Origin: a virus | Virus record (IMG/VR): IMGVR_UViG_3300006324_000015 | Location: 1 to 22,217 of that record | Direction: 5' to 3' (one strand) | Length of the DNA: 22,217 bases | Shown here: positions 1 to 22,097 of the stretch, piece after piece | Position numbering within the stretch: position 1 is the stretch's first letter | Layout of the letters: each line of letters begins with the position of its first letter | The notes under the pieces: model-generated | What the model saw: only the letters and a program-made list of their open reading frames with translations | Told to the model about the DNA's origin: nothing | Databases searched by the model: none | Program-made: the position numbers and the translations under genes

Positions 1-285
1 CCACTTAGGCAAATGATTGAAACCATACTTACTTTTCTTCAGCAACAACACAGACTCTCTCTCCGTTCGAGAAAGATCAATAATGTTCTGGTCGGCGTGA
101 AAAAACGCCAACCAGAACTGATGGGCAGCAACCAAAGTCGTCCACCCAATCTGACGGGCCTTCAAAGTTAGCGAATACCTATTTCTTTCCCAGTGCGTGA
201 CAGCTTCCGCTTGAGCTTGACGTAAAGAAAAAAGAATACGACCGTGAGCAGGGTGAGCAATGTGCCAATAGTTCTGTAAAAAATA
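1..285 (-). CDS. terL: Terminase large subunit, N-terminal ATPase fragment (partial at both ends)
   Basis: This is an open frame running off the left edge, in a different minus-strand frame from the giant gene it overlaps. It translates to about 95 residues that read like the start of a terminase large subunit, the motor that packages DNA into the phage head. Visible features are NYWHIAHPAHGRILFSLRQA, then LTLKARQIGWTTLVAAH as a variant Walker A (P-loop) region, then NIIDLSRTERE and KKSKYGFNHLPKW. This pattern is typical of terminases of siphovirus or other non-T4 type; T4 gp17 has a different local sequence (SRQLGKTT). GC is about 46% by hand count over 1-270, against about 30% just inside the giant gene. 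The frame can be traced back to a GTG at 348 just after a TAA (352-354), but that part is AT-rich, lacks a ribosome binding site and is the giant gene's own sequence. The terminase start is therefore missing. Confidence 0.8.
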
Positions 286-3200
286 TTTCTCCTGTATATC
301 TTGTATATCCTTTAGTTGTGTCTGCAACGTTTTTAAAAGTATATTCACTCGTTAATGCTTCAACATCGCTAATAGTAATATAAATCTGACTTGGTCGTAA
401 ATCCATAGGCCACTTTAACGAAATCTTTTGCTTACTTGCATTACCAGTAAACGATTCAGTTTCTTCAAGAGTTGTAATTAAAAATGTTCCTGTAACCCTA
501 TCAAATCTTGATATAATATGAGCATTACGTACTTTTCCATTACCAAGTTTAGCAGAAACAACAGCCGGTACACCGCCATCAGATTGTGTTCCATTAACTG
601 CAACTGTTGGTGCTGATAAATATCCTGAACCAACATTTGTTATTTTAATGTGTGTAATTTTTCCACCTGTACCAATGTATGCTTGTGCTTTAGCACCTGT
701 TCCGCCGCCACCACTTAATGTAATGACAGGAATCTCAAGATATTTTGTTCCACCATTTTTAATCTGGATCTCTTCAACTTCATAACCTAAGTTATCTTTC
801 CAATGTTTATTTGGATAATTTATAAGTCCAGGATCTACACCATATAATGCATCATCTTTAACTTTTAATGACGCCGGTATAATTCTTCCAGCTTGTATAT
901 CATAAGCTGGAGGTAAATCAAAATCTGTTGTTACTGATTGAGTATTATCTAATTTTGTATAAGAAGTTAAATATTCTCTAATTTTAGTTTTATACGGTTT
1001 AGTTTCTTCAATAAATTTTTCATAACTTGGAAGATTATCATTTTGGAATGTAATTTTTTCAGCTAAATCTCCAATGTTATGTTTTGCTTTAAGGAAACTT
1101 GTTTTAAATGCCCAGTCAACAAATTTTTGTTCAGAAAGCACATAACGTAAACTTGACAAGAATAATTTATTATATTCAACTGCAAGATCATTTATAAAAA
1201 TATCATCACGTAATGCTTCTAAGATTAATCTAAATTCATGAACTGGTTGATTATCATAATTAGATGTATCATAACTTAAACTATCATAACCTATATACCA
1301 ACCTTGATAATTATATAAACTTGAAGAAAACTGTATTGTTCCGTTTTCCCTACCAATTGTTTCATAATTTGTAGTATAATCTACATCAGGAACATCATTG
1401 ATTTTTTTCAATAGTAACCAACCACCTGAACCAACTGTTTTAATTTTAACAACATCACCTAGAGTATCGTCTAATGCAGTTAGTTGATAACTTTCATCAA
1501 TTAAATAATCTACCTGTGTAAACTTATTATATCCTGTTGCGTACCAGTTAGCATAATGCCAATATGCAGGAACATTAAATGCCTGACTATCTGTTCTTTC
1601 CCATAATTCAGATACAGAATTATAAGCATGAATAGACCATTTGTCACCAATACTTTCGTCTGCTTTAATAAGTGTGCTATATTTTCTAACTGTTAATTCT
1701 GTATTTAAACTATACTCTCTACCAGAGTGTTTTACAGTTACAGTAGAAATTTTTCCTAAAGTATCAATTGTTATAATAAGTTCAGCACCTTGCCCGTTAC
1801 CTACTTTACTAAATTGGTATGTTGGTGCTACTTTATAACCTCTACCAGGATCAGCAATATCAACTCTAGCTAATCTACCATTTTCCCAAATAGGTGTTAA
1901 GACTGCTTGTTTAACATTTGCAGTACCAACAAATACTATTTCTGCATAGATATCAACAGCTTGATCAAATTTGCCAGAATTAATAGTTGGCATTGGATCA
2001 ATTGTACCCAATTTATTAAGATCGTATTCATCAACAATAATATGTTGTATAAGAACTCTATTAACTCTTTCAATAAGTTGTTTTACTGCTTCAAGTCTGT
2101 TTACAAACCAACTTTGTCGTGGTCTATTTAAAATACCGTATTTTTCTTTTACACTTAACTCAGGATTCGGAACTGCTCTATAATTTGTGTCCCAACCAAT
2201 TAAACTATCAAACCACTTACGTTCTACATCTGCTTTTGGCTTACTAGTTTTTAATCCTTCACTTATAAGTTGATATTCATTATGAATATTAGTATAAACA
2301 GGAATAGTCCAGTAGCGGAAATTAACTGCTGAATCATTAGCAGTAAATAATGCATCACAATTATACAATGCAAATCTACTATCACTATACAATGCCGCAT
2401 ACTTATAACCTTGAGCTTTAGGATCTTCAATTAATTGTGCTACATCATATGCACTTGTTTTTCTCCAATCCATAGAAGGAATATGTTTTTTATTTTTAAC
2501 CCAATAATAATACTGAGTTGAAAAACTTTGTGCTTGTTTGTTATAAATTTGTCTTGTTGATAATGTACTATCATCAGCAAACTTAGGTTGTCCACTAATT
2601 CCTTGTGCTAATCCTTCTTCTGTATCTGCTAATTCTGACCATTCAGATGGTTTAAGTGTTGTTTCAACCCATTCATAAATATCAATTGACGCTCCTTTAA
2701 ATAACTTACCCCAAGTTGCTGTTTGATAAATTATACTTCCTTGATAAGGATTATGATATTTTGCCGTACTTAAATCCCACCATATTTTTCCAACATAATT
2801 TTTGCCCCAGGCCGCGGATTCATCAACAACAGATATTGTTCCACCTATTGTATATGTTGCTGGGTCATATAATGTTTTAAAAGCAATTTCTTCTTCGGCA
2901 CTACCTGCAATTTTTCCTTGAACTGGGTCAATATAATCTATTTGGCTAGTAAGTACATTCTTTGAAGTATTATAAACAAATACACCTTTAAATTTTGATA
3001 CATCAACTTGATCAAGTGGGTATCGTAATGTTTGCCATGACAAAACATCTCTATTACGTCTAAAATCAATTATAGTTCCCTGATAATTGTCTCCAGGAGT
3101 AGTAGTTAATTCTGGCATTGAAACATAAACATGATTATCTGTAAATAATAAATAATCACCGAAGCGTCTTGTTACAGGATTATTATAAACAAATTTTTCA

Positions 3201-6200
3201 CTATAAAGTAATGTATCATTAAATCTTTGGAAAATAAGAACTTGTCCACTATCTTCATTTGAAGTTTTATACTGAGTAAGATTATTATCAAACGATGTAG
3301 GTAAAACTGTAGTATTTGCATCAAATGTTGTTGTTGATATAAGATCACCACCACGTGATGAAACAGCTAAATTATCTTTATCAAAATCTAATGTTGCTCC
3401 GAATCTTTCTGCTACATCGTTTTCTGGACTATAAAGTGTTTGTGACCATATGAAGCTACCCGCTACTTGCCTATACACATAAACAGCACCATTGTTAGTA
3501 TCTATTTCATCTTGTAATGGGGCTCCAACTGCAACTATAGTTCCATCATCTGAAACTGCAATAGCATTTCCAAACCCTATACCTGCTTTAGGTGTTACTA
3601 TTACTTGACTAAATTCATAATGACCGTTGTTTATTCTGTATATAAGAACTTTAGGATCACTATCAGTAAACTCAGCTACAACAACTAAAATGTTTCCATC
3701 TTTATTAATTGTAAACGGAGTAGCAAAACCCGTTAATGTAGTATGATCTACAATAGTTTCGTCGTCAACTGTTAACCCTAAATCATTAGGAACATATCCT
3801 ACATAATCTATATGACTTGATAATTGTGTCCATAACGATGAATCAAATGCACCAGCTGGTAAATTAGTTTTACTTTGATAAAAATACTGTTGATGTAAAA
3901 CAATATCATTTTCAAAATATGCTACAGTATCACTAAACACACCTTTATAATTTTTATCTTTGCCAACTGCATAATCATATGATATTCCATCAGCATCAGT
4001 ACCATGATTATAAAAATATACCCTACCAGCAGTTCCAACTGTACTACCATCATATTCTACGCCTGAACTTACATGAAGATAATGTAACTTACTATTTGTA
4101 GCAAATTCTAATTGCTTACCGAAGTATTTGAAACCAAAAGTATTACTATCCTCTTCGGCCGCATACTCAGAAACATATCCATGATTTAACGAATACTCAC
4201 CATTGGCTGTTTTATCATAAGTTAAAATTATTCCTTGGTTAACATAAGCACTTGCCACACCTTCAGTATGGGCCTGAATATTAAATGTTTGTACCCAGTC
4301 TTTGTTTAATGGTGTTGGATAATTTGGTATTCTAGAAATTCCGCTAACTGTACTGCTAGAATAAAAATGTACTTCTAACTCGTTTTGAAAAGCCGGCGAA
4401 GTAACAGGTAACTGAGACGAATCCGTGTTTTTAATAACAACCATTTTACCTGCAATCGATGAATCCATATCTGCATGATCTAATCTCCCTGATAAACGAT
4501 TAACACCAGAACTAATAGCATCTTTAATACTAAGAGTACTACTAGCACTATTATTAAATCCGAAGCTAAATGTCCCTACCCTATCTTTTACATAAAGGCG
4601 GCACGTTAATAATTGTTCTTGTAAATACGTTACTTCGGCTGTAGCGCCTGTGGTGTCATCAATAATAATTTCACCTACTTGAGGAATATAAGGATTTCCT
4701 AAATTGTCAAAATTTGTAAATGTAACATCAATAAATCCACTCCATAAGTCATATACAGCATGAGCTGAATTTACATATGAAAATGTTAAACCTAATGATG
4801 CAGGATCAAATACTGAGATAGGTGCAACACCTCCTCTAATAGTATTAAGCCACATTGTAAAGTTATCTGTTACATTAAGAGTATCTGTAAAAACTTTTGC
4901 TCCTCTTATAAACCAAAGCTCACTTAAATTAGGCAATCCTTGTTTATCATAATAACTTAAATGACCTAAACGACCGCCTCTGGTAGGATCAAGAACTAAA
5001 CTTAATGCACGAACATCATCCATTGTATTACCAAAGACAACAGGTGAACGTGATTCAGCTTGAGTAATAAAATCTTGTCCTATAAGATTAGGTATTGAAA
5101 TCTGTTGAGCTGACGTAACTGTTGTAGTAAATGCTGGAATCCCATCAATCTTCCACCAACCGCCAAATGTGTCTGCCGCTGAAGCTGGTCTAATTAATTC
5201 AAAGTCTCCACAACTTACTGCATTGTAGAAAAGTTCACCAGTAGGATCAAATGCACCACTAACATCTGTCATATAAATTATTGATTGACTAACATTTTCA
5301 ATTCGAATATATGCTATTTCACCAACCGCAGTATCTGATGATAATGAATCACCAACTGTTGGAATACGTATTAAATTATCAATGTACAATACTGCATCAA
5401 TTTTATTTGCAATAACTTTCTGTCCTTCAAGTGCCGCAACACCTGGACCTGTATTCCCCCAAGGTAAAACACCATTTGGATAATTTTGTGAAAATTCGTT
5501 CCAATTAAGAACTACTTTATCACCATCTGTTGATCCTTCATATTGTGCAAGTGGGGCTCTAATTAATACGTGATCTGTAGAAACATCTATTCCATAGTCA
5601 CCTCTTATAGCGTAAACTATAGTAGGGTATGAATTATTACCTATATCATAATTTGCTTCTTCTATAAACGATGTTGACCAAAAACTTGGAAACGTTAATG
5701 CACCGGTTGCCGCTGAGATTGGAAATTGTGCTTCCCAGGTTGTTTCTGAATACTTAACAATGTCTCCAGCAACATAAGGTAATCCTCCATCAAAGTCGCC
5801 TTTGAATTTAGTTTTTACATAACTGGCATTTGGAGCGCCAATAACTAAATGATCTCCATTATCAGTTAATGCAATACTAGAACCAAATTTTCCTGGTCCT
5901 GTATAAAGTCCATTAGGTGCTGAAATTGTTTGTCTATGATAATAATCTACATTATCTGCAACTCTATTAAAAACATAAACTTTTTCTTGCTCACTTGCTG
6001 ATGCAATTAAAATAGTATTTCTTTCATCAGATGCAATAACTTTACCAAATAAATGATCTTCCCCAGGTGCTAAATTAGAAATTAATTGGTGTGAACTATA
6101 TGTTGGTTTATTTTGTAGTACGATCCACTTACCAGTATCATCATCATCAACCCAAATTAATTCACCTACTTGTAATTCACTATTAATAATTCTAGTATTT

Positions 6201-9200
6201 GCATCTGCCATAGAAGCAACTCTAGCCGAAACAAATTTTGTAATAAATCCTTGTTTTGTAGTATCAAAGTTTTCTGATAGTTCTACATCTGGAGTTTCAC
6301 CATTTGCATAACAAATTATAGTATCTAATGATACACTTTTAACTTTAAAGAATTTTTCAATTGGTTCAGCTTCGTCCTGGCCGACATCAAGAATACCTAT
6401 AATATCATTAGCTTCGTATCTTGCTTGTGTCTTAAGTTGTAATGTAGTTGTCCCAGCTGTAGTATCTGAACTTACTGCTATAACATTATCTGTTGTTCTA
6501 ACATATTTGACAACATCCCAAGTTGTTCCTCGTAATCCTACCCATACATAATCGCCAACATTTAAATCAGAAATTGTTGCATCTAAAATATCATCAAACT
6601 TTGCAACTGTTAATTTAACATCGTCTTCATTAACAAACCCTGCTGTCTGAATGTACTCAAGAAATGTTGAACGGTTAGGAAATGGTTTATGATTATAATT
6701 GTTAGGTTTAAGATAAACTTCAAATGGTCTTAGACGATAAATTAAATCAGTTTCTAGTCCTGACACAGTATCAACTAATTCTACTGGTTGCGGAGATAAC
6801 TTAAATTTAGCTTCGTCTAATTTAAATTCTACTTCATCAAATCCATCCGATGAACCATATTGTCCTAACTTAACAGCCCATTCTTCATAAAAGTCAATAC
6901 TGTCTTTGTCTGCACTACTTAAAGCATCAAATAATTTTGTTAAACTATTTTGTGTCCCTTTGTCTTGAATATATCCTTGATAAAACTTATACTGACTAAC
7001 ATCATCTTGAATAATATTTGCAAGATAGTCTCTCTTTTGATATCCAATAAGATGTTGTGCTATTCTTTGTTGTTCTGTATCGAAATTATCAGTATCTAAA
7101 TCATAAAAATCTTTAAATTGTTTTGCTTTATAGTCTAGATTGGGGATTAATTTAGCTTCTGGTTTAGCTGTTAGTCTTTCCCACTTAGACGAATCAAAGT
7201 TTTCTGTACCAGGACTTTTTGTTATAGAAATATAATAAAATTCTTTATATTTTACTGTATCACCTAAAACATAATCTTGATAAGATTTCCATTCATTAAT
7301 AATAGCATTATCATAAACGAATCCTGGAATATTTAAAGAGCCTTTCCAGTCATCAGTTCTATAACCTAAAACTTTAATTCGTTCTTGTCTATACCCTGGT
7401 TCTAAATCAAAAATAATATCATTAAAAACTGTATGGTTGTCAATTAAACAAACGTGCTCTTTTTGTATTAAGGGTAGCTTAACAGCATATATACCATCAG
7501 CAGTATTTTGCGTAGTTATTTGAAATTCATTATCGTTACTTCTATAAATTTTAGCAAATTCAGAATCTAATTTACGTCCGTCTGCTCTTAGAAGTGTATA
7601 GTCATGAAAATTATCAAAGATATTATCAGAAACATAATAATCTCTTTTAAATTTTAATCTATTACCAGCAGGACTTAAAGATATAACACTATCTTCACGC
7701 CAATTTTGTGTAGTCCAGAATAAAAATTCTTTAGCACTTAACTCCCAATTTTCAATTACATTAATTTCAGGATTAAAAAAGTTAAAATCAAATCCTTGTG
7801 TTTCTAACCACTTACCATAACCTAATAAAAAGTCAACAACTTCTTGAACAGTTGTTAATAAAGTACCATAAGCTAATTCTTTTGTGCTATTAATAATATT
7901 CGGAGAAAGATCAAACTGACGTCTAAAGAATGCTTCCCTACCTCCAGTAACTGGTAACTCAATTAATCTAGCAAAAAATTGTTGTTGAAATGTTGTTGAA
8001 CTAGTATGAGCTTCTTTAACTCTATAATAATCATTATTAAATTGAACTGTTTGTCCAAGTACATATACTTGATTTTCTGTCCAGTCAAGAAAGGGATCAG
8101 TAACGCCGCCAATTTTTACAACAGGATCATCTGATAACTCACGAGCCGCAAAATATTTAAAATATGGATTAGTTTTATCATATCCTTTTATAACAAATCC
8201 TGCTGGTCTTTTTTCAATCATAACTCCGCTATAACTTACTAAATCAACTACCGAACTTTTATTTAAAAATATCTTATAGTTTTCATCAGGAACAAAAACA
8301 TTACCTTCATTAAATGGAGATCTACTGTCTAATACTAATTTAAATTTGTCTTTATGAGTAAATCCTGCAACCTTAAACCCTATCTGATTTTTTACAGATT
8401 TTAATGCAGTTGTATAATCACTATACGTACCTAATGACTCTGAATTAATATAATCACAAATATAATTAACTAATCCTGAAGTGTTAACTCTATCTTCATC
8501 AGTTATTACCATAGGAAAGATTAAATCTTTTAATCTAAGTCTTTTATCAGTTTCACTATAAATGATTTCTTTTGCTGGATTTCGAATTATTCGTGATCTA
8601 TCAAATCCTAATCCCATAATTTTAGTTGGCTGATTAAGAATCCAACTACAAATAAATGCGAATGGATATTCACTACTTCTGCGCCAGGCTGTTTCTGTTG
8701 GTGCTTCGTCCCCAAATACAAATTCTTTATTTGTTAAAACAAGAACATAATTTTTAGCAAAGTTACTATCTAATGGACTTAATAAATTACCTTCACCATC
8801 AACTGGAATATGCTTTGTAATATCTTTTCTTGCATACGCTGTAAGATATTTTAATGCTTTACCAGGTTCTCTAACAATTCCATCTTCAATATCTTGCCAT
8901 AAAATTTTATTTTCTCTAGTATATGGCGCTGGTCCGTAAACTGTTTTCCACCATGTCGGTTCAATAGTATAACCTAGAATTTCCCAAGGATGGGTATGCG
9001 GACGATCAGTATCAAAGGCTTCTTTATAAACACCTCTCCAATACCCAGGTAATTGTTTACCACTTGGTGCCGTCATAGCACTATAATTAAATGTAAAACT
9101 ATTTGACCTTACATAAAAATCATGATCTGTATAATCTATATTGCCAACATTTTCTAACCAAGCTACAAAGTCTGTAATTAATGCTTTATCTCTTGCCCAT

Positions 9201-12200
9201 TTTGTAAATTTTGTATCTCTTGATTCACCGCCAATAAATTCATGTATATCTAAAATAGTTGAATCATACTCTGATTTTATATTGTTAAAAATTCTTTGTT
9301 CTAACTCTAACAGTAAGTCATCGCGAAAATCACCAAAGCAAACAAATATGTTACCGTCGTGTCCTTGAATAACTTCTGTTGGTACTTGGTAAGTGTTATC
9401 AATATATTTTATGGGTTTATATTTTGGATATAAACCTAATTTAGTAGGAGTTGGTGGAATATAACTTCCATCAGTAGTTTCATATTCATAAATTTCAATA
9501 ATATCATCAACGACTTTAGTTGCTGTAATTGTTACAAAGCCTGGATGGTCTGTTTCAAACTGATAATCTATACCATGATATAATTGTACTTTATTTTTAT
9601 AAATGTAAACTGCTTTATCTGATAAAGCACTTAAATTAAAATCACTTGACAATGCAAAAAATTGTGTATCTTTATCTTTTACAGTATGACTTGTTTTAGT
9701 ATATGTTCCTATACCCATCATATCGCTAAAGAAAAACGGCATATTATTAGTTTTATCTTTAACTACTGCCTGCATTACTTTTTCAAAATGAGGTACTGTC
9801 TCTCCTGTAAATCCTACAGTATTTGCTTTTTGAAGAAATACTCTTCTAAATTTTCCATACTCATTACTAGCATATCTAATTGCTTTAATAATATTTGCAT
9901 TAGTATCAGTAATATGATATAAAGCAAGATCTACTTGTCCGCTATGTTGTACAAAGCGACGACCATATGGAGCAAGATTTCCTATATCTCTTAAATTATT
10001 CATACCAGGCATTGAACCTAAAAACTCATCATTATATTCACTCAATGAATGAACATGATCGTTAACTTCACCTAATGTAAAAGTAAGAACATTATCATTT
10101 AATGGATTTCGTTCTAAGTTATGCGGTATTTCATAATACCCGTTTTCATTTTTCTTTGTAGCACTATTAGATAGAATTTTAACTACATCATCTTTTACTA
10201 ACTCTTTAATAAACGTAACATAAGCTACACCATTAATTCTATTAATTGCAAAATCTGTTATATTAAATTTTCTTATGTTATTAACATACACTCTTAACCA
10301 TAAATCATTTAAGTCACCACTACGATCATAAACATCAACAGCAAAACTATTTGTTTGATTAGAAACAACATATTGTCTTACCACGTGTTGTCTACTATTT
10401 TTAATAGCTTTAATCCATCCTGACGTATATGTAAAAGTACTAATATCACTATACTCTTTTAATAATGTTACATCAGTATTTCCTTTTACTTCTGCATTAT
10501 TTTGTTGATAGGTATATGTACCACCTAATAAATTAAAATCAAATAAAATATCTCCTGAATTTTCTAATGCTCTATAACTTAACGAAAATCCTAACTCTGG
10601 ATCTTTAACTTCACCAGCACCTACTTTATAACTAAAAAGTTTATTTCCAACAAATGTTGATGATGGGTAATAAGTTATGTCCGATAATGAATAACCACTC
10701 TTATCAAATAAATCAAATAAAGGCGGTTGGTTTGCATCAATTTTATCTTGTCCAGCTTTCCACTCGGTACCATTATAATACCACATCTTACCTTTATACT
10801 CATCACCGTTTCTAACTAATACTGTTTCGTTTTCAATTGGGGTTGTATCTGTTTCTTCAATAAGACTAATTTGTCTTATAAGATTATGTGTAATAAATTT
10901 TACTTTAAAAATTTTTCCTGATACTCTACTATCAGGATCAGCAGTAAACAATACACGCATATTGTCAACAATATCTACACCATCAACATTATACCCTATT
11001 GCACCTTCAACATTTGAAAACACATCATTAGTAAATGTATCTAATAAATCAATATCAGCTTTAGCACTAGTACCAAAATTATGTAATTTTAATCCTGCAC
11101 TAAATTCAATAATAGGACGTTTTGCTCTATAATCTTGATCTAGTTCTGGAGGTGTACCTGTAAGTGTTGCAGACAGTTCAATAACTTCTCTATGAAACCA
11201 TCTGTTATACCTTGCCCAAGGATTTCTACTTTTAGATGCTTTATTAACTACAAGATAATCTTTTACTCCTGCAAAACTATTAGCATTACTATATGGTAAC
11301 CTATCAAATCCTACGCTGTCAAACAAAACAGGTTTATCTGTTGCATACGTAGCCGGAATTTCTAAATCTTTTTCATTAATTAAAGTAATTTCAGTTCCAA
11401 CACCTTCAATATACCATTCACCAGTAGCATATTTTGTAGGAGTTACTGTTCCTTGGAAATAAACCTTTAAACCATTTGAAAAAGCTATTCCACCAGTACT
11501 TGTATAAGTTTTTTTACCTAAAATTTCAGCTTCTACATCTATTTCTGTATTATCAACTGCATCTGCAATTTGTATTAACCCACTTGCATTAATATCATTT
11601 CCATTTACATAAAATAATGTATCAGGTGCATTATCAGGAATTGTCCAAGTAATAGTTCCAACATCAACTGTTTGAGTACTATCATCTAGTCCTGTAGTAA
11701 ACAATAAACTAGGATCTAATGAACGTGCAGTTCTAAATGTTAGTGGCATTCCTACTGCATCAATCTCAAAGATATATGTTTGTCCTCTAAATAATTTTAA
11801 TGTTGGATTGGATGTTAATCCATCAGGTGTGAAAATATAACTGTTATTATCTATATTATCTTTTTTAGTTACTTTATACGTGCTTATAACATCTTTAGCA
11901 TTACCGGCAATACCTATTCCTATTGGACCACCTGGAAGCCAATAATATTCTCTAAAATTTACAAACTTGTCCCAATCAATATGCGGATTCCAAGCATAAT
12001 ATTCAGTACTATTAAGTTTACTATGATTATCTACATTACCACCGAACGCTTTTATTTGATTAATATAATCATTGTAGTCTTTATAAAACTTTACATTATC
12101 TAAAGTATCTTTAACAACTACGCCGGGTTCAAATTGATAACTTTCTCTAGCCGTAGTATGTTCTTTAATATAAACATCATTAGCTTGATATGATTTAGCC

Positions 12201-12394
12201 GCGTGGCGACCAAAGTAACCGTTTAGCTTTTCAGCAACACCTGGTGCTATTAATTGATCTAGAGTTGCCCCTAAAAACTTTTTATTATGTCCGGTTCTAA
12301 AATATCTAGGAAGTAATTCAGCACTATGTCTTCGTGGTGGCTTCTTACTAGCACTTGGTAAAGGATATTCGCTTTGTTCATTCGAAAAAGGCAT
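179..12394 (-). CDS. Giant baseplate/tail structural protein (about 4,070 aa), C-terminus probably lost
   Basis: This one gene fills over half the window. Its ATG overlaps the stop of gp6 (TAATG), with GGGAG upstream, so it is probably coupled to gp6 translation. In T4 the gene after gp6 encodes wedge protein gp7. Residues about 1755-1850 hold a helical stretch (RDYLANIIQDDVSQYKFYQG) that resembles the C-terminal helical part of T4 gp7, which is weak support for a gp7-like role. Other visible parts are: a conserved-looking N-terminus with NFREYYWLPGGP; a tryptophan-rich region near 1130-1150 (RPHTHPWEILGYTIEPTWW); carbohydrate-binding-like modules near 1437, 1698, 2193 and 2815; FG-GAP-like blades near 2165-2190 and 2937-3095; and GSGY-type modules near 3505-3555 and 3872-3933. 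No signal peptide or membrane segment is evident. It probably forms the outer wedge and host-contact structures. The last 30 residues (codons 271-182) look foreign, so the natural end is probably missing. T4 gp7 is about 1,030 residues, so a fusion of several wedge or fibre proteins is possible. Confidence 0.85.
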   Translation of the reverse strand: MPFSNEQSEYPLPSASKKPPRRHSAELLPRYFRTGHNKKFLGATLDQLIAPGVAEKLNGYFGRHAAKSYQANDVYIKEHTTARESYQFEPGVVVKDTLDNVKFYKDYNDYINQIKAFGGNVDNHSKLNSTEYYAWNPHIDWDKFVNFREYYWLPGGPIGIGIAGNAKDVISTYKVTKKDNIDNNSYIFTPDGLTSNPTLKLFRGQTYIFEIDAVGMPLTFRTARSLDPSLLFTTGLDDSTQTVDVGTITWTIPDNAPDTLFYVNGNDINASGLIQIADAVDNTEIDVEAEILGKKTYTSTGGIAFSNGLKVYFQGTVTPTKYATGEWYIEGVGTEITLINEKDLEIPATYATDKPVLFDSVGFDRLPYSNANSFAGVKDYLVVNKASKSRNPWARYNRWFHREVIELSATLTGTPPELDQDYRAKRPIIEFSAGLKLHNFGTSAKADIDLLDTFTNDVFSNVEGAIGYNVDGVDIVDNMRVLFTADPDSRVSGKIFKVKFITHNLIRQISLIEETDTTPIENETVLVRNGDEYKGKMWYYNGTEWKAGQDKIDANQPPLFDLFDKSGYSLSDITYYPSSTFVGNKLFSYKVGAGEVKDPELGFSLSYRALENSGDILFDFNLLGGTYTYQQNNAEVKGNTDVTLLKEYSDISTFTYTSGWIKAIKNSRQHVVRQYVVSNQTNSFAVDVYDRSGDLNDLWLRVYVNNIRKFNITDFAINRINGVAYVTFIKELVKDDVVKILSNSATKKNENGYYEIPHNLERNPLNDNVLTFTLGEVNDHVHSLSEYNDEFLGSMPGMNNLRDIGNLAPYGRRFVQHSGQVDLALYHITDTNANIIKAIRYASNEYGKFRRVFLQKANTVGFTGETVPHFEKVMQAVVKDKTNNMPFFFSDMMGIGTYTKTSHTVKDKDTQFFALSSDFNLSALSDKAVYIYKNKVQLYHGIDYQFETDHPGFVTITATKVVDDIIEIYEYETTDGSYIPPTPTKLGLYPKYKPIKYIDNTYQVPTEVIQGHDGNIFVCFGDFRDDLLLELEQRIFNNIKSEYDSTILDIHEFIGGESRDTKFTKWARDKALITDFVAWLENVGNIDYTDHDFYVRSNSFTFNYSAMTAPSGKQLPGYWRGVYKEAFDTDRPHTHPWEILGYTIEPTWWKTVYGPAPYTRENKILWQDIEDGIVREPGKALKYLTAYARKDITKHIPVDGEGNLLSPLDSNFAKNYVLVLTNKEFVFGDEAPTETAWRRSSEYPFAFICSWILNQPTKIMGLGFDRSRIIRNPAKEIIYSETDKRLRLKDLIFPMVITDEDRVNTSGLVNYICDYINSESLGTYSDYTTALKSVKNQIGFKVAGFTHKDKFKLVLDSRSPFNEGNVFVPDENYKIFLNKSSVVDLVSYSGVMIEKRPAGFVIKGYDKTNPYFKYFAARELSDDPVVKIGGVTDPFLDWTENQVYVLGQTVQFNNDYYRVKEAHTSSTTFQQQFFARLIELPVTGGREAFFRRQFDLSPNIINSTKELAYGTLLTTVQEVVDFLLGYGKWLETQGFDFNFFNPEINVIENWELSAKEFLFWTTQNWREDSVISLSPAGNRLKFKRDYYVSDNIFDNFHDYTLLRADGRKLDSEFAKIYRSNDNEFQITTQNTADGIYAVKLPLIQKEHVCLIDNHTVFNDIIFDLEPGYRQERIKVLGYRTDDWKGSLNIPGFVYDNAIINEWKSYQDYVLGDTVKYKEFYYISITKSPGTENFDSSKWERLTAKPEAKLIPNLDYKAKQFKDFYDLDTDNFDTEQQRIAQHLIGYQKRDYLANIIQDDVSQYKFYQGYIQDKGTQNSLTKLFDALSSADKDSIDFYEEWAVKLGQYGSSDGFDEVEFKLDEAKFKLSPQPVELVDTVSGLETDLIYRLRPFEVYLKPNNYNHKPFPNRSTFLEYIQTAGFVNEDDVKLTVAKFDDILDATISDLNVGDYVWVGLRGTTWDVVKYVRTTDNVIAVSSDTTAGTTTLQLKTQARYEANDIIGILDVGQDEAEPIEKFFKVKSVSLDTIICYANGETPDVELSENFDTTKQGFITKFVSARVASMADANTRIINSELQVGELIWVDDDDTGKWIVLQNKPTYSSHQLISNLAPGEDHLFGKVIASDERNTILIASASEQEKVYVFNRVADNVDYYHRQTISAPNGLYTGPGKFGSSIALTDNGDHLVIGAPNASYVKTKFKGDFDGGLPYVAGDIVKYSETTWEAQFPISAATGALTFPSFWSTSFIEEANYDIGNNSYPTIVYAIRGDYGIDVSTDHVLIRAPLAQYEGSTDGDKVVLNWNEFSQNYPNGVLPWGNTGPGVAALEGQKVIANKIDAVLYIDNLIRIPTVGDSLSSDTAVGEIAYIRIENVSQSIIYMTDVSGAFDPTGELFYNAVSCGDFELIRPASAADTFGGWWKIDGIPAFTTTVTSAQQISIPNLIGQDFITQAESRSPVVFGNTMDDVRALSLVLDPTRGGRLGHLSYYDKQGLPNLSELWFIRGAKVFTDTLNVTDNFTMWLNTIRGGVAPISVFDPASLGLTFSYVNSAHAVYDLWSGFIDVTFTNFDNLGNPYIPQVGEIIIDDTTGATAEVTYLQEQLLTCRLYVKDRVGTFSFGFNNSASSTLSIKDAISSGVNRLSGRLDHADMDSSIAGKMVVIKNTDSSQLPVTSPAFQNELEVHFYSSSTVSGISRIPNYPTPLNKDWVQTFNIQAHTEGVASAYVNQGIILTYDKTANGEYSLNHGYVSEYAAEEDSNTFGFKYFGKQLEFATNSKLHYLHVSSGVEYDGSTVGTAGRVYFYNHGTDADGISYDYAVGKDKNYKGVFSDTVAYFENDIVLHQQYFYQSKTNLPAGAFDSSLWTQLSSHIDYVGYVPNDLGLTVDDETIVDHTTLTGFATPFTINKDGNILVVVAEFTDSDPKVLIYRINNGHYEFSQVIVTPKAGIGFGNAIAVSDDGTIVAVGAPLQDEIDTNNGAVYVYRQVAGSFIWSQTLYSPENDVAERFGATLDFDKDNLAVSSRGGDLISTTTFDANTTVLPTSFDNNLTQYKTSNEDSGQVLIFQRFNDTLLYSEKFVYNNPVTRRFGDYLLFTDNHVYVSMPELTTTPGDNYQGTIIDFRRNRDVLSWQTLRYPLDQVDVSKFKGVFVYNTSKNVLTSQIDYIDPVQGKIAGSAEEEIAFKTLYDPATYTIGGTISVVDESAAWGKNYVGKIWWDLSTAKYHNPYQGSIIYQTATWGKLFKGASIDIYEWVETTLKPSEWSELADTEEGLAQGISGQPKFADDSTLSTRQIYNKQAQSFSTQYYYWVKNKKHIPSMDWRKTSAYDVAQLIEDPKAQGYKYAALYSDSRFALYNCDALFTANDSAVNFRYWTIPVYTNIHNEYQLISEGLKTSKPKADVERKWFDSLIGWDTNYRAVPNPELSVKEKYGILNRPRQSWFVNRLEAVKQLIERVNRVLIQHIIVDEYDLNKLGTIDPMPTINSGKFDQAVDIYAEIVFVGTANVKQAVLTPIWENGRLARVDIADPGRGYKVAPTYQFSKVGNGQGAELIITIDTLGKISTVTVKHSGREYSLNTELTVRKYSTLIKADESIGDKWSIHAYNSVSELWERTDSQAFNVPAYWHYANWYATGYNKFTQVDYLIDESYQLTALDDTLGDVVKIKTVGSGGWLLLKKINDVPDVDYTTNYETIGRENGTIQFSSSLYNYQGWYIGYDSLSYDTSNYDNQPVHEFRLILEALRDDIFINDLAVEYNKLFLSSLRYVLSEQKFVDWAFKTSFLKAKHNIGDLAEKITFQNDNLPSYEKFIEETKPYKTKIREYLTSYTKLDNTQSVTTDFDLPPAYDIQAGRIIPASLKVKDDALYGVDPGLINYPNKHWKDNLGYEVEEIQIKNGGTKYLEIPVITLSGGGGTGAKAQAYIGTGGKITHIKITNVGSGYLSAPTVAVNGTQSDGGVPAVVSAKLGNGKVRNAHIISRFDRVTGTFLITTLEETESFTGNASKQKISLKWPMDLRPSQIYITISDVEALTSEYTFKNVADTTKGYTRYTGEIFFTELLAHCSPCSRSYSFFFTSSSSGSCHALGKK
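262..292. other. Probable chimeric junction between baseplate gene and terminase gene
   Basis: Sequence character changes abruptly here. To the right lies AT-rich baseplate coding sequence, to the left terminase coding sequence of near 46% GC in another frame. The giant protein reads sensibly up to about YTGEIFFTE (codons down to about 272). Its last 30 residues are then the out-of-frame reading of terminase DNA, with three cysteines and a serine run. The terminase reads sensibly from about NYWHIAHP onward. No repeat, integrase or attachment-like sequence is visible. Whether this is an assembly error or a real recombination cannot be decided from the sequence alone. Confidence 0.7.
595..780 (-). 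repeat. GSGY-type repeat module near the end of the giant protein
   Basis: Giant protein residues about 3872-3933 contain two half-repeats. The first is EEIQIKNGGTKYLEIPVITL, then a glycine run and GAKAQAYIG. The second is ITHIKITNVGSGYLSAPTVA. The pattern I.I.(N/V)GG..Y...P.(I/V)....GGG.GA is common in phage tail and neck structural proteins and suggests repeated beta hairpins. A related copy lies at about 1720-1890 (VDIADPGRGYKVAPTY, then TVTVKHSGREY). Confidence 0.55.
1720..1890 (-). repeat. GSGY-type repeat module, upstream copy
   Basis: Residues about 3502-3558 read VDIADPGRGYKVAPTYQFSK, then NGQGAELIITID, then ISTVTVKHSGREY. This is the same plan as the module at 595-780, with a G.GY...P half, an NGQGA turn and a second half ending G..Y. 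The two copies lie about 320 residues apart. The helical and aromatic stretch between them is not a repeat. Confidence 0.5.
3110..3600 (-). repeat. FG-GAP-like beta-propeller blades in the giant protein (C-terminal cluster)
   Basis: Within residues about 2937-3095 of the giant protein, three segments repeat the pattern [R/G]FG....(8-10)..G....V..P. They are GFGNAIAVSDDGTIVAVGAP, RFGATLDFDKDNLAVSS and RRFGDYLLFTDNHVYVSMPE. This matches the FG-GAP or integrin-alpha propeller blade, in which a phenylalanine-glycine pair starts a strand and a glycine-alanine-proline ends the next. A blade of the same kind lies upstream at about 5830-5905. Such propellers commonly mediate binding to proteins or glycans. 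The assignment comes from reading the motif by eye. Confidence 0.6.
3820..3950 (-). repeat. Carbohydrate-binding-like module (YxxGDxVxYxxxYY...FxxxxWxxL type)
   Basis: The segment YKGVFSDTVAYFENDIVLHQ, followed by QYFYQSKTNLPAGAFDSSLW, fits a short aromatic module. It begins with W or F and a few residues, then Y..(G/N)D.V.(Y/H)....Y, and ends F....W..L. This resembles CBM5/12 (chitin-binding-like) modules found in phage tail proteins and glycosidases. Similar segments occur in the giant protein at about 5672-5815, 7165-7300 and 7955-8085. The similarity is by eye and short. Sugar binding is inference. Confidence 0.5.
5672..5815 (-). repeat. Carbohydrate-binding-like module, third copy
   Basis: The segment DFDGGLPYVAGDIVKYSETT and the following FPSFWSTSF share the PYV.GD.VKY....W...F..FW pattern of the other modules. 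It directly follows an FG-GAP-like blade, so adhesion-type modules alternate in this part of the protein. Confidence 0.45.
5830..5905 (-). repeat. FG-GAP-like blade, isolated copy
   Basis: KFGSSIALTDNGDHLVIGAP (giant protein residues about 2165-2190) is the best match to the FG-GAP blade in this window. It sits about 750 residues before the three-blade cluster. The intervening sequence may be an insertion into one propeller, or may hold blades too diverged to see. A carbohydrate-binding-like module follows directly. Confidence 0.55.
7165..7300 (-). repeat. Carbohydrate-binding-like module, second type example
   Basis: This copy reads EWKSYQDYVLGDTVKYKEFY, followed by a stretch ending FDSSKWERLT, and is the clearest of the four. 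The shared frame with the other copies is W....(D/Q).YV.GD.V.Y....Y and a closing F....W..L. It lies just before the gp7-like helical part of the giant protein. Confidence 0.5.
7955..8085 (-). repeat. Carbohydrate-binding-like module, fourth copy
   Basis: The segment WTENQVYVLGQTVQFNNDYY, followed by FQQQFFARLIEL, keeps the W....VYVLG..V.....YY core. The closing aromatic is F rather than W, so this copy is more diverged. Confidence 0.4.
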
Positions 12395-15300
12395 TAGATT
12401 AAATTACTCCCAGAGCTTGTAATAGTACCTGATGTATATGTACCAGCACTTTGTATACCTGAATTAGTTGACGTTGCAACAGTTAAAACTCTACCTGAAG
12501 CTTTTAATCTACTTGCTGTAACGGCATCTATTACCTCAACATTATCAACAATTGCTCCACTAATAAAAATTTCATCTGATTCAGATTTAATCTCATATAA
12601 ACTACCAAATCCTTGCAATTCTTGATTAGGAACAATTACAATTGTAACTAAATCAGGAGCAACAGTAGCCATAATAAAAGTACTCAACTCTGAGAAGTAA
12701 AATGTATCTCCAAAATCCCAATTATCTAAAGCAAAAAATTGATTAATTGCTGAAATAACTTTCGCCTTAATTGCATTAGTATTAACAACTTGATCTGGAT
12801 TTTTAACTATTTTAAAGGTTGCTTGTAAATCTAAATCTGCAGAAGCTCCAAATAAAACTTTATATTTTACAGGATGATAAATGACTTCGTCACTAATAGA
12901 TTTAATTTTATTAATTTCTGATCCATAATTATTAAACAAATTATCACTACTTGGGGGTAATGGTTTTATTGTTGTTGTACCATCTAGGAATTCTCTAAAC
13001 GACCCATCATATTCTTTTGTTAAAAGATATGTATCGATAATATTACTACCACTAGGATCAATTCTATTATCATCATCTGCCGCATGAATATATTGGAATT
13101 TAAGTTTATCTCGTCCGACAAAGGCCCTGTAATCTGTTATTAAATCTACTGACGTAGTCGCATATACATATTTTTTAAATACATTCTCTGTGACTAGATA
13201 AAAAACTTGTCCATCAGTATATTGACTCAATGCACCTATATAACTTTCTGCTTGAACTATCGTAATACTTGCACTATCCATATAACTATAATCTTCAATT
13301 CCATCAGTAGTAAGGTATTTTTTTTGGAAGATAAATTTTGTTAAAGGATTTACTAATTCACTAACAATTTCAAGAAATGTTTCTGGATCATCTACAACGC
13401 CATCTTCATCAAAGTCATAAAAACTTACTTCAACTTTTTTACTATCAACATATCCATCAGCATCACGATATGCATCAGAAATTTCCCAATCATGCTGTAC
13501 TGTAAATGGTATAAGTGCATCTGGTTTTAAGTTAATAGACAGGACTGCAATTTTATCTTTAATAATTTGTCCTGTCTTATTATCAAAAACTTTATCACTA
13601 CTATCATAATAAAATCTAATTTCTTCTGCACTTTCAAAAATATACCGTAAACTACGATATGTAATTGTATATTTTTCACCATCAGTTTCAAATAATAAAA
13701 TCCAACTTGCATCTAATTGTTGATTAGTAATATCTCCAGTTTTACCTAAACTAAAATCTCCAAGAATACTTAAATTATTTTCTATAATAATTCGCCATTG
13801 TCTTAAATTAATATCATATCTTAAACCAAATGTTTTTTGTGCAAATACATGATCAACTATTTGTGTTTGCACATCAGCTTCTAATGTTTTAGAAAACTTA
13901 GGTACTATTTGATTTAAAATAGCAGTTGATGGAATAGTATCATTGAGTATAATTGGACCTGATCCATCAGTATTATCAATAGCGCCATCACCTGCAACAC
14001 TAATAACCTTAACCCACTTATAATCAATTGAGCCTGGGTGGTTGGCCGCACCAAGCATTAATGTACCATCTTTCATAAAATGGTATCCTGTAGGTGGAAG
14101 AAATTTTATTAATGTTCCTGCTTCAAGAAATCTTAATGCACTACCTGTAAAACTTCCAACTTGAAATCTTGTACCATCATCATCTTCAAGATGACCAGTT
14201 GTTAAGTTTGTTCCAGTTGTAGTTTGTACCCAATTAGCTCCTAAATCTGCTACAATTGTTTTAGGAAAATTTGTTAGATAATAATTTAATAATTGTTTTT
14301 CAGCTAATACTGGTGTAATAGTGTTTACAATAATACCTTCAATATCTGTTTTTGTTGTAAATGTAAAATGTTTATATTTTGTTAAAGTTTCTTTATATAC
14401 AACACCATCATTACCAAATAAAGTTGTACTAGAATATTTGCCAGTACTATCTAATAAATCAAAGTATCGTGAAATACCACTTGCTGTTCTATTAACACTT
14501 TTAACTTTAACAATTTCTTGACTAATACCTAGTGGAGCAACTTGATAGTCTTCACTGGTAACCATACGATTCTGAGTATAATAAGTAGCTGGTGCATTCT
14601 CACGAATACTTAAATTACTTTCTGAAGTACTACTATTATCTACAGTATACTTTAATGATAATGTTATATTAATTGTTTCAGCATTTCCTACAGCAGAAGA
14701 ATAAGGAATTGCTACACTAATTGATGTTAAATCATCAGGAACAATACTATATGATTGATTAAGACTAGCTCTATAATAAACTCTAAAATCACCTTGAGGT
14801 AAATTACCAAAAACTCCATCAGAAAAAATTATGTTAATTTTATCTTGTGTTTTAGTAAGTACTCCATAGATGTTTCTAATCTTTTTTCGTAAACTATTAT
14901 AAACAATATTATTACCTTCTAATGCATCAACTTTAGTCCATAACTGGGATTCACTACCCAATGAATTTAATTGATACACCCAAACATCTGTATTATTGAC
15001 ATTTACTGCATCAATGGCAATAGTTTGATTGGTACTTGGGGCGTCAACTGTAAATTGTCCTTGGTCTAAAACGCCTTGTCTAAAATGACTAAAATATCCA
15101 GTATTTTCACTACCTGGTCCTCGTCCATCATCTCTAAACAAAAATGCGAAACTATTACCTGGCAAAGGTGGTTCTTCGTATATAACACCATCAACAACAT
15201 CTGTTGAAACTACTTGAAACTGAATGTTTCGTCCGTCAATATTTTTACTAAAAGTAAAAATTGGTACATCAACATTAGTTGCTCTATATCTATATTGATG

Positions 15301-15852
15301 TGTTAATATACCTTCTACTGTATCTTTTTTAATAGGTCGACCAATTGTAGAATTTACTGGCAATGACGCATTAAGAATCTTTTCAAATTGTTCTTTCCAA
15401 TCAGGATTAGTTGGGTCATTCCATACAATTGTTTGATTGGCTAAATTTGTACCATTTGAATCTACAACTTCTTCAGTAGTTGTAATAGCTTCAAACTTTA
15501 GTAACCCATTAGCACACTGATTACGTTTTGGATTATATGATAATAGTCGTGCTAAACGTAATACTGAATCTCTACGCTCAGCTAATTCAAGAAAATTTTC
15601 TCGAGAATTTAAATCAATACGATAAGCAATATTTTGTCCTAGAAATGCAATAAGATCAATTAAAGCTAGATACTCACTAGAGTCGATGTAATCATTAAAA
15701 TCTTCAGGATAGTTATCTCGTATGTACGCAATCATCGTACGACGTAAACTATCAAAGTCATACGACCTAAACTCCGCATTACGAAAAGTTTGATATAAGC
15801 GTTTCCAGTCTTCTGCTAAAAGTAACCTATTTTGTCTATTTGTTGATGACAT
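12394..15852 (-). CDS. gp6: Baseplate wedge protein gp6 (baseplate J family), enlarged
   Basis: This is a wedge subunit; in T4, gp6 dimers form the continuous inner ring of the baseplate around the hub. The N-terminal 110 residues (FRSYDFDSLRRTMIAYIRDN, then YIDSSEYLALIDLIAFLGQN) are typical of gp6. Residues about 414-434 (IRENAPATYYTQNRMVTSED) are the baseplate-J signature. Residues about 990-1070 hold the C-terminal pattern with INQFFALDNWDFGDTFYFSE that gp6 proteins use in ring formation. Its length of 1,152 aa compares with 660 in T4, the extra lying mainly between about 470 and 980. The start ATG at 15852 has AGGG ten bases upstream. A late promoter precedes it, and the gene ends in a TAATG overlap with the giant gene. 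The family call is firm; the role of the insertion is unknown. Confidence 0.88.
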   Translation of the reverse strand: MSSTNRQNRLLLAEDWKRLYQTFRNAEFRSYDFDSLRRTMIAYIRDNYPEDFNDYIDSSEYLALIDLIAFLGQNIAYRIDLNSRENFLELAERRDSVLRLARLLSYNPKRNQCANGLLKFEAITTTEEVVDSNGTNLANQTIVWNDPTNPDWKEQFEKILNASLPVNSTIGRPIKKDTVEGILTHQYRYRATNVDVPIFTFSKNIDGRNIQFQVVSTDVVDGVIYEEPPLPGNSFAFLFRDDGRGPGSENTGYFSHFRQGVLDQGQFTVDAPSTNQTIAIDAVNVNNTDVWVYQLNSLGSESQLWTKVDALEGNNIVYNSLRKKIRNIYGVLTKTQDKINIIFSDGVFGNLPQGDFRVYYRASLNQSYSIVPDDLTSISVAIPYSSAVGNAETINITLSLKYTVDNSSTSESNLSIRENAPATYYTQNRMVTSEDYQVAPLGISQEIVKVKSVNRTASGISRYFDLLDSTGKYSSTTLFGNDGVVYKETLTKYKHFTFTTKTDIEGIIVNTITPVLAEKQLLNYYLTNFPKTIVADLGANWVQTTTGTNLTTGHLEDDDGTRFQVGSFTGSALRFLEAGTLIKFLPPTGYHFMKDGTLMLGAANHPGSIDYKWVKVISVAGDGAIDNTDGSGPIILNDTIPSTAILNQIVPKFSKTLEADVQTQIVDHVFAQKTFGLRYDINLRQWRIIIENNLSILGDFSLGKTGDITNQQLDASWILLFETDGEKYTITYRSLRYIFESAEEIRFYYDSSDKVFDNKTGQIIKDKIAVLSINLKPDALIPFTVQHDWEISDAYRDADGYVDSKKVEVSFYDFDEDGVVDDPETFLEIVSELVNPLTKFIFQKKYLTTDGIEDYSYMDSASITIVQAESYIGALSQYTDGQVFYLVTENVFKKYVYATTSVDLITDYRAFVGRDKLKFQYIHAADDDNRIDPSGSNIIDTYLLTKEYDGSFREFLDGTTTIKPLPPSSDNLFNNYGSEINKIKSISDEVIYHPVKYKVLFGASADLDLQATFKIVKNPDQVVNTNAIKAKVISAINQFFALDNWDFGDTFYFSELSTFIMATVAPDLVTIVIVPNQELQGFGSLYEIKSESDEIFISGAIVDNVEVIDAVTASRLKASGRVLTVATSTNSGIQSAGTYTSGTITSSGSNLI

Positions 15853-15874
15853 ATTGTTTTTTCCCTATTAATAC

Positions 15875-15882
15875 TATTTATT
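15875..15882 (-). promoter_or_regulatory. T4-type late promoter octamer before gp6
   Basis: On the minus strand the 50-base gap between gp25 and gp6 reads AATAAATAGTATTAATAGGG. The T4 late promoter is TATAAATA, often followed by CTATT; here 11 of 13 positions agree. It would start RNA about six bases downstream, giving a leader of about 17 bases that includes the AGGG ribosome site of gp6. T4 late promoters are read by host polymerase carrying the gp55 sigma and gp33/gp45. Those genes are not in the window. Confidence 0.6.
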
Positions 15883-15902
15883 TAAACCCATTAACTACTT
15901 AC

Positions 15903-16355
15903 TTAATTTCCAGCAAACGATGATGCATCTTCATCAAATGTTAGCCGCATTTGTTCAGAAATATTATAAGGTAGATACGTTAATGTACAATCAATTATAA
16001 TTCCTGACTCATACTGCTCAATAAGAATACTATCTACATTAACTCTAGGATCTGAGTTAACAATCTCTGTAACATTTTCAGCTATTAACCTTTTTAATCC
16101 TTCTGTTAATGGTTCATAAATTGCTTCCCAGATAATAGTTCCAAATTCTGGATTTTCTAATTTTTCACCTTGGCGTATATGAAAATGATTTATAATATCT
16201 TGTTTAATTAATTCAATATCATAAAGCACTCTACTTGAATTAGCTGGATTAACTGAACTTAGACCACGATACGCTCTACTTTTAACTGCTGACGGCTCTT
16301 TAGCGGCTGTAGTTACTCTTATTTGTTTGTATAATTCTCTATCTGATTTACTCAT
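15903..16355 (-). CDS. gp25: Baseplate wedge protein gp25 (GPW/gp25 family)
   Basis: A small wedge subunit of about 150 aa (T4 gp25 is 132). It belongs to the family shared by phage baseplates and the type VI secretion sheath base (TssE), where it helps trigger sheath assembly. Residues 63-73 (GEKLENPEFGT) match the conserved G.R..(D/N)PEFG turn, and DPRV at 102-105 sits where the family has its EPR motif. I chose the ATG at 16355, not an upstream one at 16406. It lies one base after the gp5 stop and has AAAGG upstream at 16365-16369, whereas the longer version would add 17 glutamine-rich residues from inside gp5. It is followed by the 50-base gap with the late promoter. Confidence 0.9.
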   Translation of the reverse strand: MSKSDRELYKQIRVTTAAKEPSAVKSRAYRGLSSVNPANSSRVLYDIELIKQDIINHFHIRQGEKLENPEFGTIIWEAIYEPLTEGLKRLIAENVTEIVNSDPRVNVDSILIEQYESGIIIDCTLTYLPYNISEQMRLTFDEDASSFAGN

Positions 16356-16356
16356 A

Positions 16357-17952
16357 TTAATCTGCCTTTGTTGACTCTTTCTTAAAAGGATCTGCTGTTG
16401 GTACAAATGTTAACGGATTAACTGCCGTTACTATATTATCTCTATCTGTTAATACAATTTTAAATGCTAAAGGATTTAAATTTTCATGATGATTCCAAGG
16501 TTCGTGCATCGGTGCTCTTTGTGATAATATTCCTAACGCATTATTTGTTGGAGTGCCAGGCAAAATATGTTTATTAAGAGCTGAAACAATTTGAGAGGCT
16601 GATGCCGCTGGGCCATTCATATGAATTTGTGGAGCAGTTTCTATATGATTACCTCCCGACTTAATATGTGATTGTCCACCTGATGTAATTTTAGTTTCAC
16701 CATTTGTTTTATACTCAGTATTACCTATTGTAGTAACCCATTGATTGCCGCCGAACAAACATTTAAAATCATTAAGTGTTTCTATTTGAATATTCCCTTT
16801 ACGTAATTTAGGTTCCCCATCTAATACACTATAACTTCCACTTGCTTTTAAATCTATATTAGCTCCCGCTTCAATAGTAATATTTCTATCTGCTGTAAAA
16901 TTAAGATCATTTTGAGTATGCAAACTCATACTATCTTTTGCATAAACATCTATTTTTCCATCCGATGTTAATTCAATCCATGCTGATCCTTTTGAGTTAG
17001 CAATATATATTAAATCTTCTGTATTATGTAATAGAAGTTGGTGACCAGTTCTAGTCCGTATCCTAACTAATTCATTATGTGGTAGTTCACGTGATCCATT
17101 TTTTTCGTTAAGAGAAACATTGGCATATTCTGGTGGGCCTTCACCTGCTGATGTTTTTCTTAAAATTTTATCATTACCATCATCCATTACAAATGTTGTT
17201 CCACCTAGTCTACTTCGATATACATGAGCTGGTGAATCTGAAACTCCAACATATCCTTTTGGCGCTCCGATAGTTTTATCAACTGGTCCTGGTGTACTAA
17301 TACCAAATACTGAACTAGGAAGTTCGCGTCTAGCACTAGCCGTTGATGTGCCTCTAAACTCATCTATAAACTCTTTTGTAACTAGTCCTTGTTCTAATAA
17401 TGTATTAAGAAGTCTTAGTTGAAAAGGTTTTAAAAATTTAGTTGGATCGTGAACTGTTCCTTTTTCAAGTTGTTTATTATATTCAACTACAGGAATTTTT
17501 TTACCTTTAAAATCTGAAGGCGTACCAGCAGTTGTTATTGATGTGGCGGCATGACCTGGAACAGAAAAATTTTGAAACGTGTCCCAAATACAGCCTAACC
17601 AATAACATTGATTAGGATTACTCTCAGCAAAAATTACTAATACGTTTGTTCCTGCGTCGGGTGGAACCATCCACATACCATAACTTTGTTGACTCTGCCT
17701 ATAATCATCATTTTTTCCTGTTGACCAAACGGGTGTTTGCCCAGCAAAAGGTGATAGATATCTTGCATGAAATGTTTGTCCTGCTTTTCCTGGTTCATTA
17801 CCTGAAGTTGTTGTCTTTAATAATTCAACTTGAAGGCTTCCCATAAATTCAGGATCTTGGTGACTAACAACTTTAGCTAGGAACGGACCAGGATCTTTAA
17901 GTGCTGGTTCGTCTGCTTGAATTAGATTTAAAAATGATTGTTTTAATCCCAT
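16357..17952 (-). CDS. gp5: gp5-like central spike protein without a visible lysozyme domain
   Basis: This is the central spike that punctures the cell envelope. Residues about 23-125 look like the OB-fold of gp5/VgrG proteins (GTNVLVIFAE, CYWLGCIWD). Residues about 300-450 hold short alternating strands (RTGHQLLLHNTED, then SAWIELTSDGKIDVYAKDSM and ITIEAGANIDLKASG) that suit the triple-stranded beta-helix needle. The C-terminal part has HIETAPQIHMNG (436-447) and HEPWNHHENLNP (483-494), histidine-rich motifs I associate with gp5 homologues of marine T4-like phages. T4 gp5 carries a lysozyme domain between these parts. Here residues 140-290 show no lysozyme-like sequence, so peptidoglycan cleavage, if any, must come from another protein. 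Length is 531 aa against 575 in T4. It lies 18 bases after the hub gene and one base before gp25. Confidence 0.8.
   Translation of the reverse strand: MGLKQSFLNLIQADEPALKDPGPFLAKVVSHQDPEFMGSLQVELLKTTTSGNEPGKAGQTFHARYLSPFAGQTPVWSTGKNDDYRQSQQSYGMWMVPPDAGTNVLVIFAESNPNQCYWLGCIWDTFQNFSVPGHAATSITTAGTPSDFKGKKIPVVEYNKQLEKGTVHDPTKFLKPFQLRLLNTLLEQGLVTKEFIDEFRGTSTASARRELPSSVFGISTPGPVDKTIGAPKGYVGVSDSPAHVYRSRLGGTTFVMDDGNDKILRKTSAGEGPPEYANVSLNEKNGSRELPHNELVRIRTRTGHQLLLHNTEDLIYIANSKGSAWIELTSDGKIDVYAKDSMSLHTQNDLNFTADRNITIEAGANIDLKASGSYSVLDGEPKLRKGNIQIETLNDFKCLFGGNQWVTTIGNTEYKTNGETKITSGGQSHIKSGGNHIETAPQIHMNGPAASASQIVSALNKHILPGTPTNNALGILSQRAPMHEPWNHHENLNPLAFKIVLTDRDNIVTAVNPLTFVPTADPFKKESTKAD
16365..16369 (-). 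promoter_or_regulatory. Ribosome binding site deciding the gp25 start
   Basis: AAAGG on the minus strand, nine bases before the ATG at 16355 and inside the last codons of gp5. It supports the shorter gp25 and translational coupling to gp5. Confidence 0.6.
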
Positions 17953-17970
17953 AATTAATTTCTCTTTTTA

Positions 17971-20736: not shown

Positions 20737-20739
20737 CTA

Positions 20740-21039
20740 TTATCCTAGTAATTCTTTTATATCGGCGGCTCTTGGTAAAAGGATTTCTACTCCTACTTCA
20801 AAATCGTAAATAGGATCTTCAAGAATATCCATATTACGTTGAATAAAAACCCACCAAAGTTTTGGGGTTCCATATATGTCGTTTGCAAGAAGGTCTGGTC
20901 TATGATTATACGGGGGTGTAATTACAAATGGTGGATCATCCGCACTCGCTGGAACTGGTCTAATTCTAAAATGTCCAAGACGTTCTCCATCTGCTGAATA
21001 ATTTGTAGTATGCCAAGGACTTGATGCTCTGTATGCCAT
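20740..21039 (-). CDS. gp53: Baseplate wedge protein gp53-like
   Basis: A 99-aa wedge subunit. In T4, gp53 holds neighbouring wedges together around the hub. Residues 47-63 (RPDLLANDIYGTPKLWW) line up with RPEELANAIYGNPQLYW of T4 gp53, recalled from knowledge of that protein. The region through YDFEVGVEILLP has the look of a LysM-type fold. It is half the length of T4 gp53 (196 aa), lacking most of the C-terminal part. The ATG overlaps the preceding stop (TAATG) and has GGAGG nine bases upstream at 21049-21053, the strongest ribosome site in the operon. High expression is plausible. Confidence 0.85.
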   Translation of the reverse strand: MAYRASSPWHTTNYSADGERLGHFRIRPVPASADDPPFVITPPYNHRPDLLANDIYGTPKLWWVFIQRNMDILEDPIYDFEVGVEILLPRAADIKELLG

Positions 21040-22019: not shown

Positions 22020-22026
22020 TTGGTTA

Positions 22027-22032
22027 TCCTCT
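22027..22032 (-). promoter_or_regulatory. Ribosome binding site deciding the start of the gp48-like gene
   Basis: AGAGGA on the minus strand, seven bases before the ATG at 22019. No comparable site precedes the alternative ATG at 22064. Confidence 0.65.
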
Positions 22033-22038
22033 TTCAAG

Positions 22039-22046
22039 TATTTAGT
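22039..22046 (-). promoter_or_regulatory. Weak candidate late promoter for the baseplate operon
   Basis: ACTAAATA followed by CTTGA on the minus strand agrees with the T4 late octamer TATAAATA at six of eight positions. It would give a leader of about 14 bases with AGAGGA just inside it, the same geometry as before gp6. Some promoter must lie in this 78-base gap if the operon starts here. The match is loose and its edge overlaps the rightward -35 box. Confidence 0.3.
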
Positions 22047-22074
22047 TGACTTTATTAAGTACATAGTTTATAAT
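22046..22074 (+). promoter_or_regulatory. Sigma70-type promoter, rightward
   Basis: TTGACT at 22046-22051, a spacer of exactly 17 bases, and TATAAT at 22069-22074, which is close to the bacterial consensus. Transcription would start near 22081, about 17 bases before the ATG at 22098. A promoter this strong, read by unmodified host polymerase, is what T4-like phages use for early genes. It points away from the late operon. Confidence 0.8.
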
Positions 22075-22097
22075 AAGCTATTACCATGGAGAAATTA

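Follow-up and report, generated by a model that had tools for sequence, protein, structure and literature searches.

Virome assembly is known to produce chimeric contigs, in which different genomes become joined at a short exact match, with a perfect match to one source on each side, and in which switches between strains arise within conserved stretches (PMC3901335). The stretch of DNA analysed here (the window) is the complete IMG/VR record IMGVR_UViG_3300006324_000015, of 22,217 bp. Exact-match mapping resolves it into three pieces, each with an exact or nearly exact counterpart in another IMG/VR record; they meet at two joins, 271-291 (join 1) and 11649-11688 (join 2). We assign a probability of about 0.94 to the reading that assembly produced this chimeric record; taken singly, misassembly is near certain at join 1 and likely at join 2.

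The leftmost piece (1-291) is identical to IMGVR_UViG_3300032820_000282 at 291/291 positions, the next-best terminase relative being 96.9% identical and the remainder below 88%. The middle piece (271-11688) is identical to IMGVR_UViG_3300032820_001714 at 11,418/11,418 positions; further relatives are 81-85% identical, with the exception of 3300032278_000058, which equals the window throughout its overlap (1645-11688). The right-hand piece (11649-22217) shows 5 mismatches in 10.6 kb against IMGVR_UViG_3300006325_000015 and 2 against 3300032278_000245. A separate search of the two sides of join 1, suggested in the preliminary description of this DNA, thus ends in two different phage genomes, each matched exactly; join 2 had been missed there. 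The hand-counted GC contents of about 46% and 30% given there agree with the computed values of 0.459 (1-270) and 0.30 (301-360), and the fraction for 292-22217 is 0.325. The source phages themselves have a GC content of 50% (terminase parent) and 32.6% (phage of the giant gene). A DNA search with window positions 1-1500 against annotated phages gave no match.

The coding features described here lie on the minus strand. The foreign tail, with codons of a terminase large-subunit ATPase, occupies 1-270 and is followed by join 1. The body of a giant virion structural gene, in the haplotype of IMGVR_UViG_3300032820_001714, extends over 292-11648. Beyond join 2, the region 11689-22217 has the haplotype of IMGVR_UViG_3300006325_000015 and holds the 5′ end of the giant gene, the genes for a gp6-like baseplate wedge, a gp25-like protein and a gp5-like hub/lysozyme, and virion structural genes. 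The giant open reading frame as recorded (179-12394, 4,071 aa) is composed of two strain haplotypes and a nonsense tail.

At the left end, a minus-strand open reading frame covers 1-348. Its terminase part (1-291) is an N-terminal piece of the large-subunit ATPase, matches the terminase large subunit of PHROG 5989 (E 3.4e-15), and is read in a frame different from that of the giant open reading frame. The fragment has no gene start of its own and is cut on its other side by the contig end; the giant open reading frame ends in a spurious C-terminal tail of about 29 residues (182-270), produced where translation enters the terminase piece in the wrong frame. The preliminary description was therefore right in placing a terminase N-terminus in another frame at this end, as well as in noting that the terminase lacks a proper start and the giant protein a proper end. 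The intact terminase ATPase gene in IMGVR_UViG_3300032820_000282 possesses a start codon and encodes 300 aa beginning MSRIAELRQEAEWRKCVRDEKYFLQNYWHIAHP. The same record contains a podovirus-type head module, consisting of a portal (which matches a head-tail adaptor family), a scaffold, a major head protein and an internal virion protein. Judged by its sequence, 1-270 is the DNA of a marine podovirus-type phage unrelated to the rest of the record. That the terminase could be a native gene of the giant-gene phage was considered and ruled out, because the GC content differs and neither set of loci carries the other gene: a terminase is found in 0/18 giant-gene loci, and the giant gene in 0/80 terminase loci, 70 of which show more than 300 bp upstream.

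Join 1 had been described as blunt, which it is not: the parents overlap by 21 bp at 271-291 (GTTCTGTAAAAAATATTTCTC) and lose all similarity on both flanks. No other exact match between the two contigs is as long, the next being 15 bp; in 100 first-order Markov shuffles the longest match ranged from 13 to 18 bp and never exceeded 18. Only two records in viral_contigs contain the 21-mer, namely the parents, and a 33-mer spanning the join occurs in none (0 records). A search of the genome collection with the 21-mer returned a Lokiarchaeota MAG contig as its sole match, which is taken as chance. Both parents exist as separate, unjoined contigs of sample 3300032820 (the window may come from another sample), each with its own gene intact. 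All close relatives of the giant gene, with the parent counted in, are collinear past the join (9/9). The joined arrangement is found in neither set of loci (0/18 for the giant gene and 0/80 for the terminase, of which 49 contain a homologue of a 2OG-Fe(II) oxygenase). The joined form breaks both genes, and the foreign piece measures just 270 bp and lies at the contig end. The assembler would have passed from the giant structural gene into the terminase of the unrelated phage via the 21-base word that the two share by chance, both phages being from the same kind of sample, and the contig would have stopped about 270 bases after the crossing. In widely used de Bruijn assemblers the smallest k-mer set by default is 21, although the assembler used for this record may differ.

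Join 2 lies inside the giant gene, where the record switches strain within a 40-bp stretch identical in both strains (11649-11688). The two strains are 82% alike to the left of this stretch and 84% to the right, and the stretch sits in a locally conserved patch with 91-97% identity, compared with about 80-90% nearby. Each haplotype is known unswitched from two records. One pair, 3300032820_001714 and 3300032278_000058, shows no difference across the join, and the members of the other, 3300006325_000015 and 3300032278_000245, agree across it. Sample 3300032278 contains both haplotypes, since two of these records, 3300032278_000058 and 3300032278_000245, each carry one of them. No other record searched has the switched sequence, and the other strains compared fall into the same two clades on both sides. 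Here the assembler would have swapped between two co-occurring strains of the giant-gene phage inside the identical stretch.

For join 1, the preliminary description had left the choice between an assembly chimera and illegitimate recombination, and the evidence strongly favours the former, because one sample contains both parents, each whole and apart from the other, a 21-bp match lies at the join, none of the relatives has the arrangement and the end piece is only 270 bp long. Had the two genomes been joined by illegitimate recombination during co-infection of one cell, with a single-strand annealing recombinase of a phage as one conceivable agent, the identity exactly at the join would be accounted for; phage recombinases are able to use short identities. 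Such an event would nevertheless have destroyed both genes, depriving the giant protein of about 890 aa and the terminase of its start, and would have united phages unlike in type and in GC content; moreover, the join recurs in no other record searched, and each parent is still present in undamaged form, without a single difference from the window in the piece it supplied. We regard this origin as exceedingly improbable, and equally little credit can be given to a living recombinant population, that is, a giant-genome myophage carrying the packaging ATPase region of a podovirus annealed at 21 bp within its giant structural gene. Very unlikely, too, is an artefact of the library, in which PCR or multiple displacement amplification switched templates within the 21 bp common to both genomes, and the resulting molecules were then faithfully assembled. 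Amplification chimeras also arise at short identities, but coverage filters would be expected to remove a contig end supported by a single rare chimera, and the change of strain elsewhere in this record is what graph traversal more typically produces. What has been observed is the exact parentage of the pieces, the words they have in common and the existence of intact, unjoined versions; we infer that the joining took place in software, and not during library preparation or inside a cell.

The case for a biological origin is stronger at join 2, where the assembler may have erred only at join 1 and the switch could be a genuine recent homologous recombinant of the two strains. The sequences are homologous and locally well conserved at the switch, both strains occur in one sample, the open reading frame remains open across the join, and homologous recombination between co-occurring strains would give an identical sequence outcome. 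Such a recombinant must, however, match one parent without any difference for 11.4 kb and depart from the other at only 2-5 positions in 10.6 kb, in a contig that already contains one evident mis-join, and it would be represented by this record alone, each parental haplotype being found unswitched twice. This explanation is accordingly thought unlikely, if far from negligible. A strain-switch mis-join is the simplest account of join 2, given the evident mis-join at join 1 of the same contig.

The phage behind 292-22217 can be described from its parents. In IMGVR_UViG_3300032820_001714 the intact giant gene lies at 18880-33675 and extends about 890 codons beyond join 1. It encodes a baseplate/virion structural protein of 4,931 aa, in which domain matches indicate a chitin-binding module together with an FG-GAP repeat. 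The nine contigs that carry the gene are about 80-85% alike in DNA. The protein family is PHROG 10938. The gene had been called a T4-like baseplate gene, which holds for its neighbourhood, where gp6-, gp25- and gp5-like genes of the T4-type baseplate are found; the gene itself encodes a giant virion structural protein. Further along the window, a structural gene of 921 aa (17971-20736) has 67-75% DNA identity between the two strains where they can be aligned, compared with 80-90% over most of the left flank. This strong divergence is suggestive of a portion of the baseplate that changes quickly or has been exchanged.

The phage group of the terminase parent has a feature of its own. In these marine phages the ATPase (Terminase_6N) and the nuclease (Terminase_6C, with a match slightly below cut-off) are encoded by separate, overlapping genes. 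The split is present in 77/77 loci that show both parts, among 80 related loci. In IMGVR_UViG_3300032820_000282 it lies at 2099-3669, with an ATPase of 300 aa and an RNaseH-type nuclease of 223 aa. The overlap is mostly ATGA, and a smaller subgroup has another frame and a longer overlap. Because the frame offset varies between subgroups, the terminase appears to be a conserved pair of genes and not the product of a frameshift or sequencing error. Programmed frameshifting was considered and is not favoured: no conserved slippery sequence is apparent by eye and the frame of the second gene varies among subgroups. A literature search on the split terminase of this podovirus group found nothing, and the observation may be worth more than the chimera itself.

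The joins are best treated as an artefact to flag and not as a biological fusion, almost certainly so for join 1. The matter is one of data quality: a composite of three records is listed as a separate virus entry, and automatic annotation of it would give a truncated protein of 4,071 aa and a terminase wrongly credited to the giant-gene phage. The reasoning used here requires no reads, as it relies on exact parents on both sides, overlap by a short word and unjoined forms in the same sample, and it is applicable to whole collections.

Among annotated phages, the nearest relative of the terminase gene is that of Podovirus isolate ct52p938 (MW202803.1, Manatee Spring), with 52% identity; there a single gene of about 560 aa encodes the whole terminase, whereas ATPase and nuclease are separate in the source phage of the window. 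For the other source phage, the gp6-like protein is about 35% identical, over 87-97% coverage, to those of Salicola phage SCTP-2, Agrobacterium phage Atu_ph07 and Pseudomonas PA5oct-like phages, which are giant-genome myophages. For the PA5oct group there is a further match, between a virion structural/chitin-binding protein and a 114-residue part of the C-terminal region of the giant gene. These phages are distant relatives only of the source of 292-22217, and none of the matches listed has a terminase at the corresponding place. As an assembly product, the record agrees with the chimeric contigs described from viromes and metagenomes, both in the joining of different genomes at a short exact match with a perfect source on each side and in the strain-level switch within a conserved stretch, and there is no essential difference between them (PMC3901335). 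What sets this record apart is that its exact parents, and the words they share, can be identified by name.
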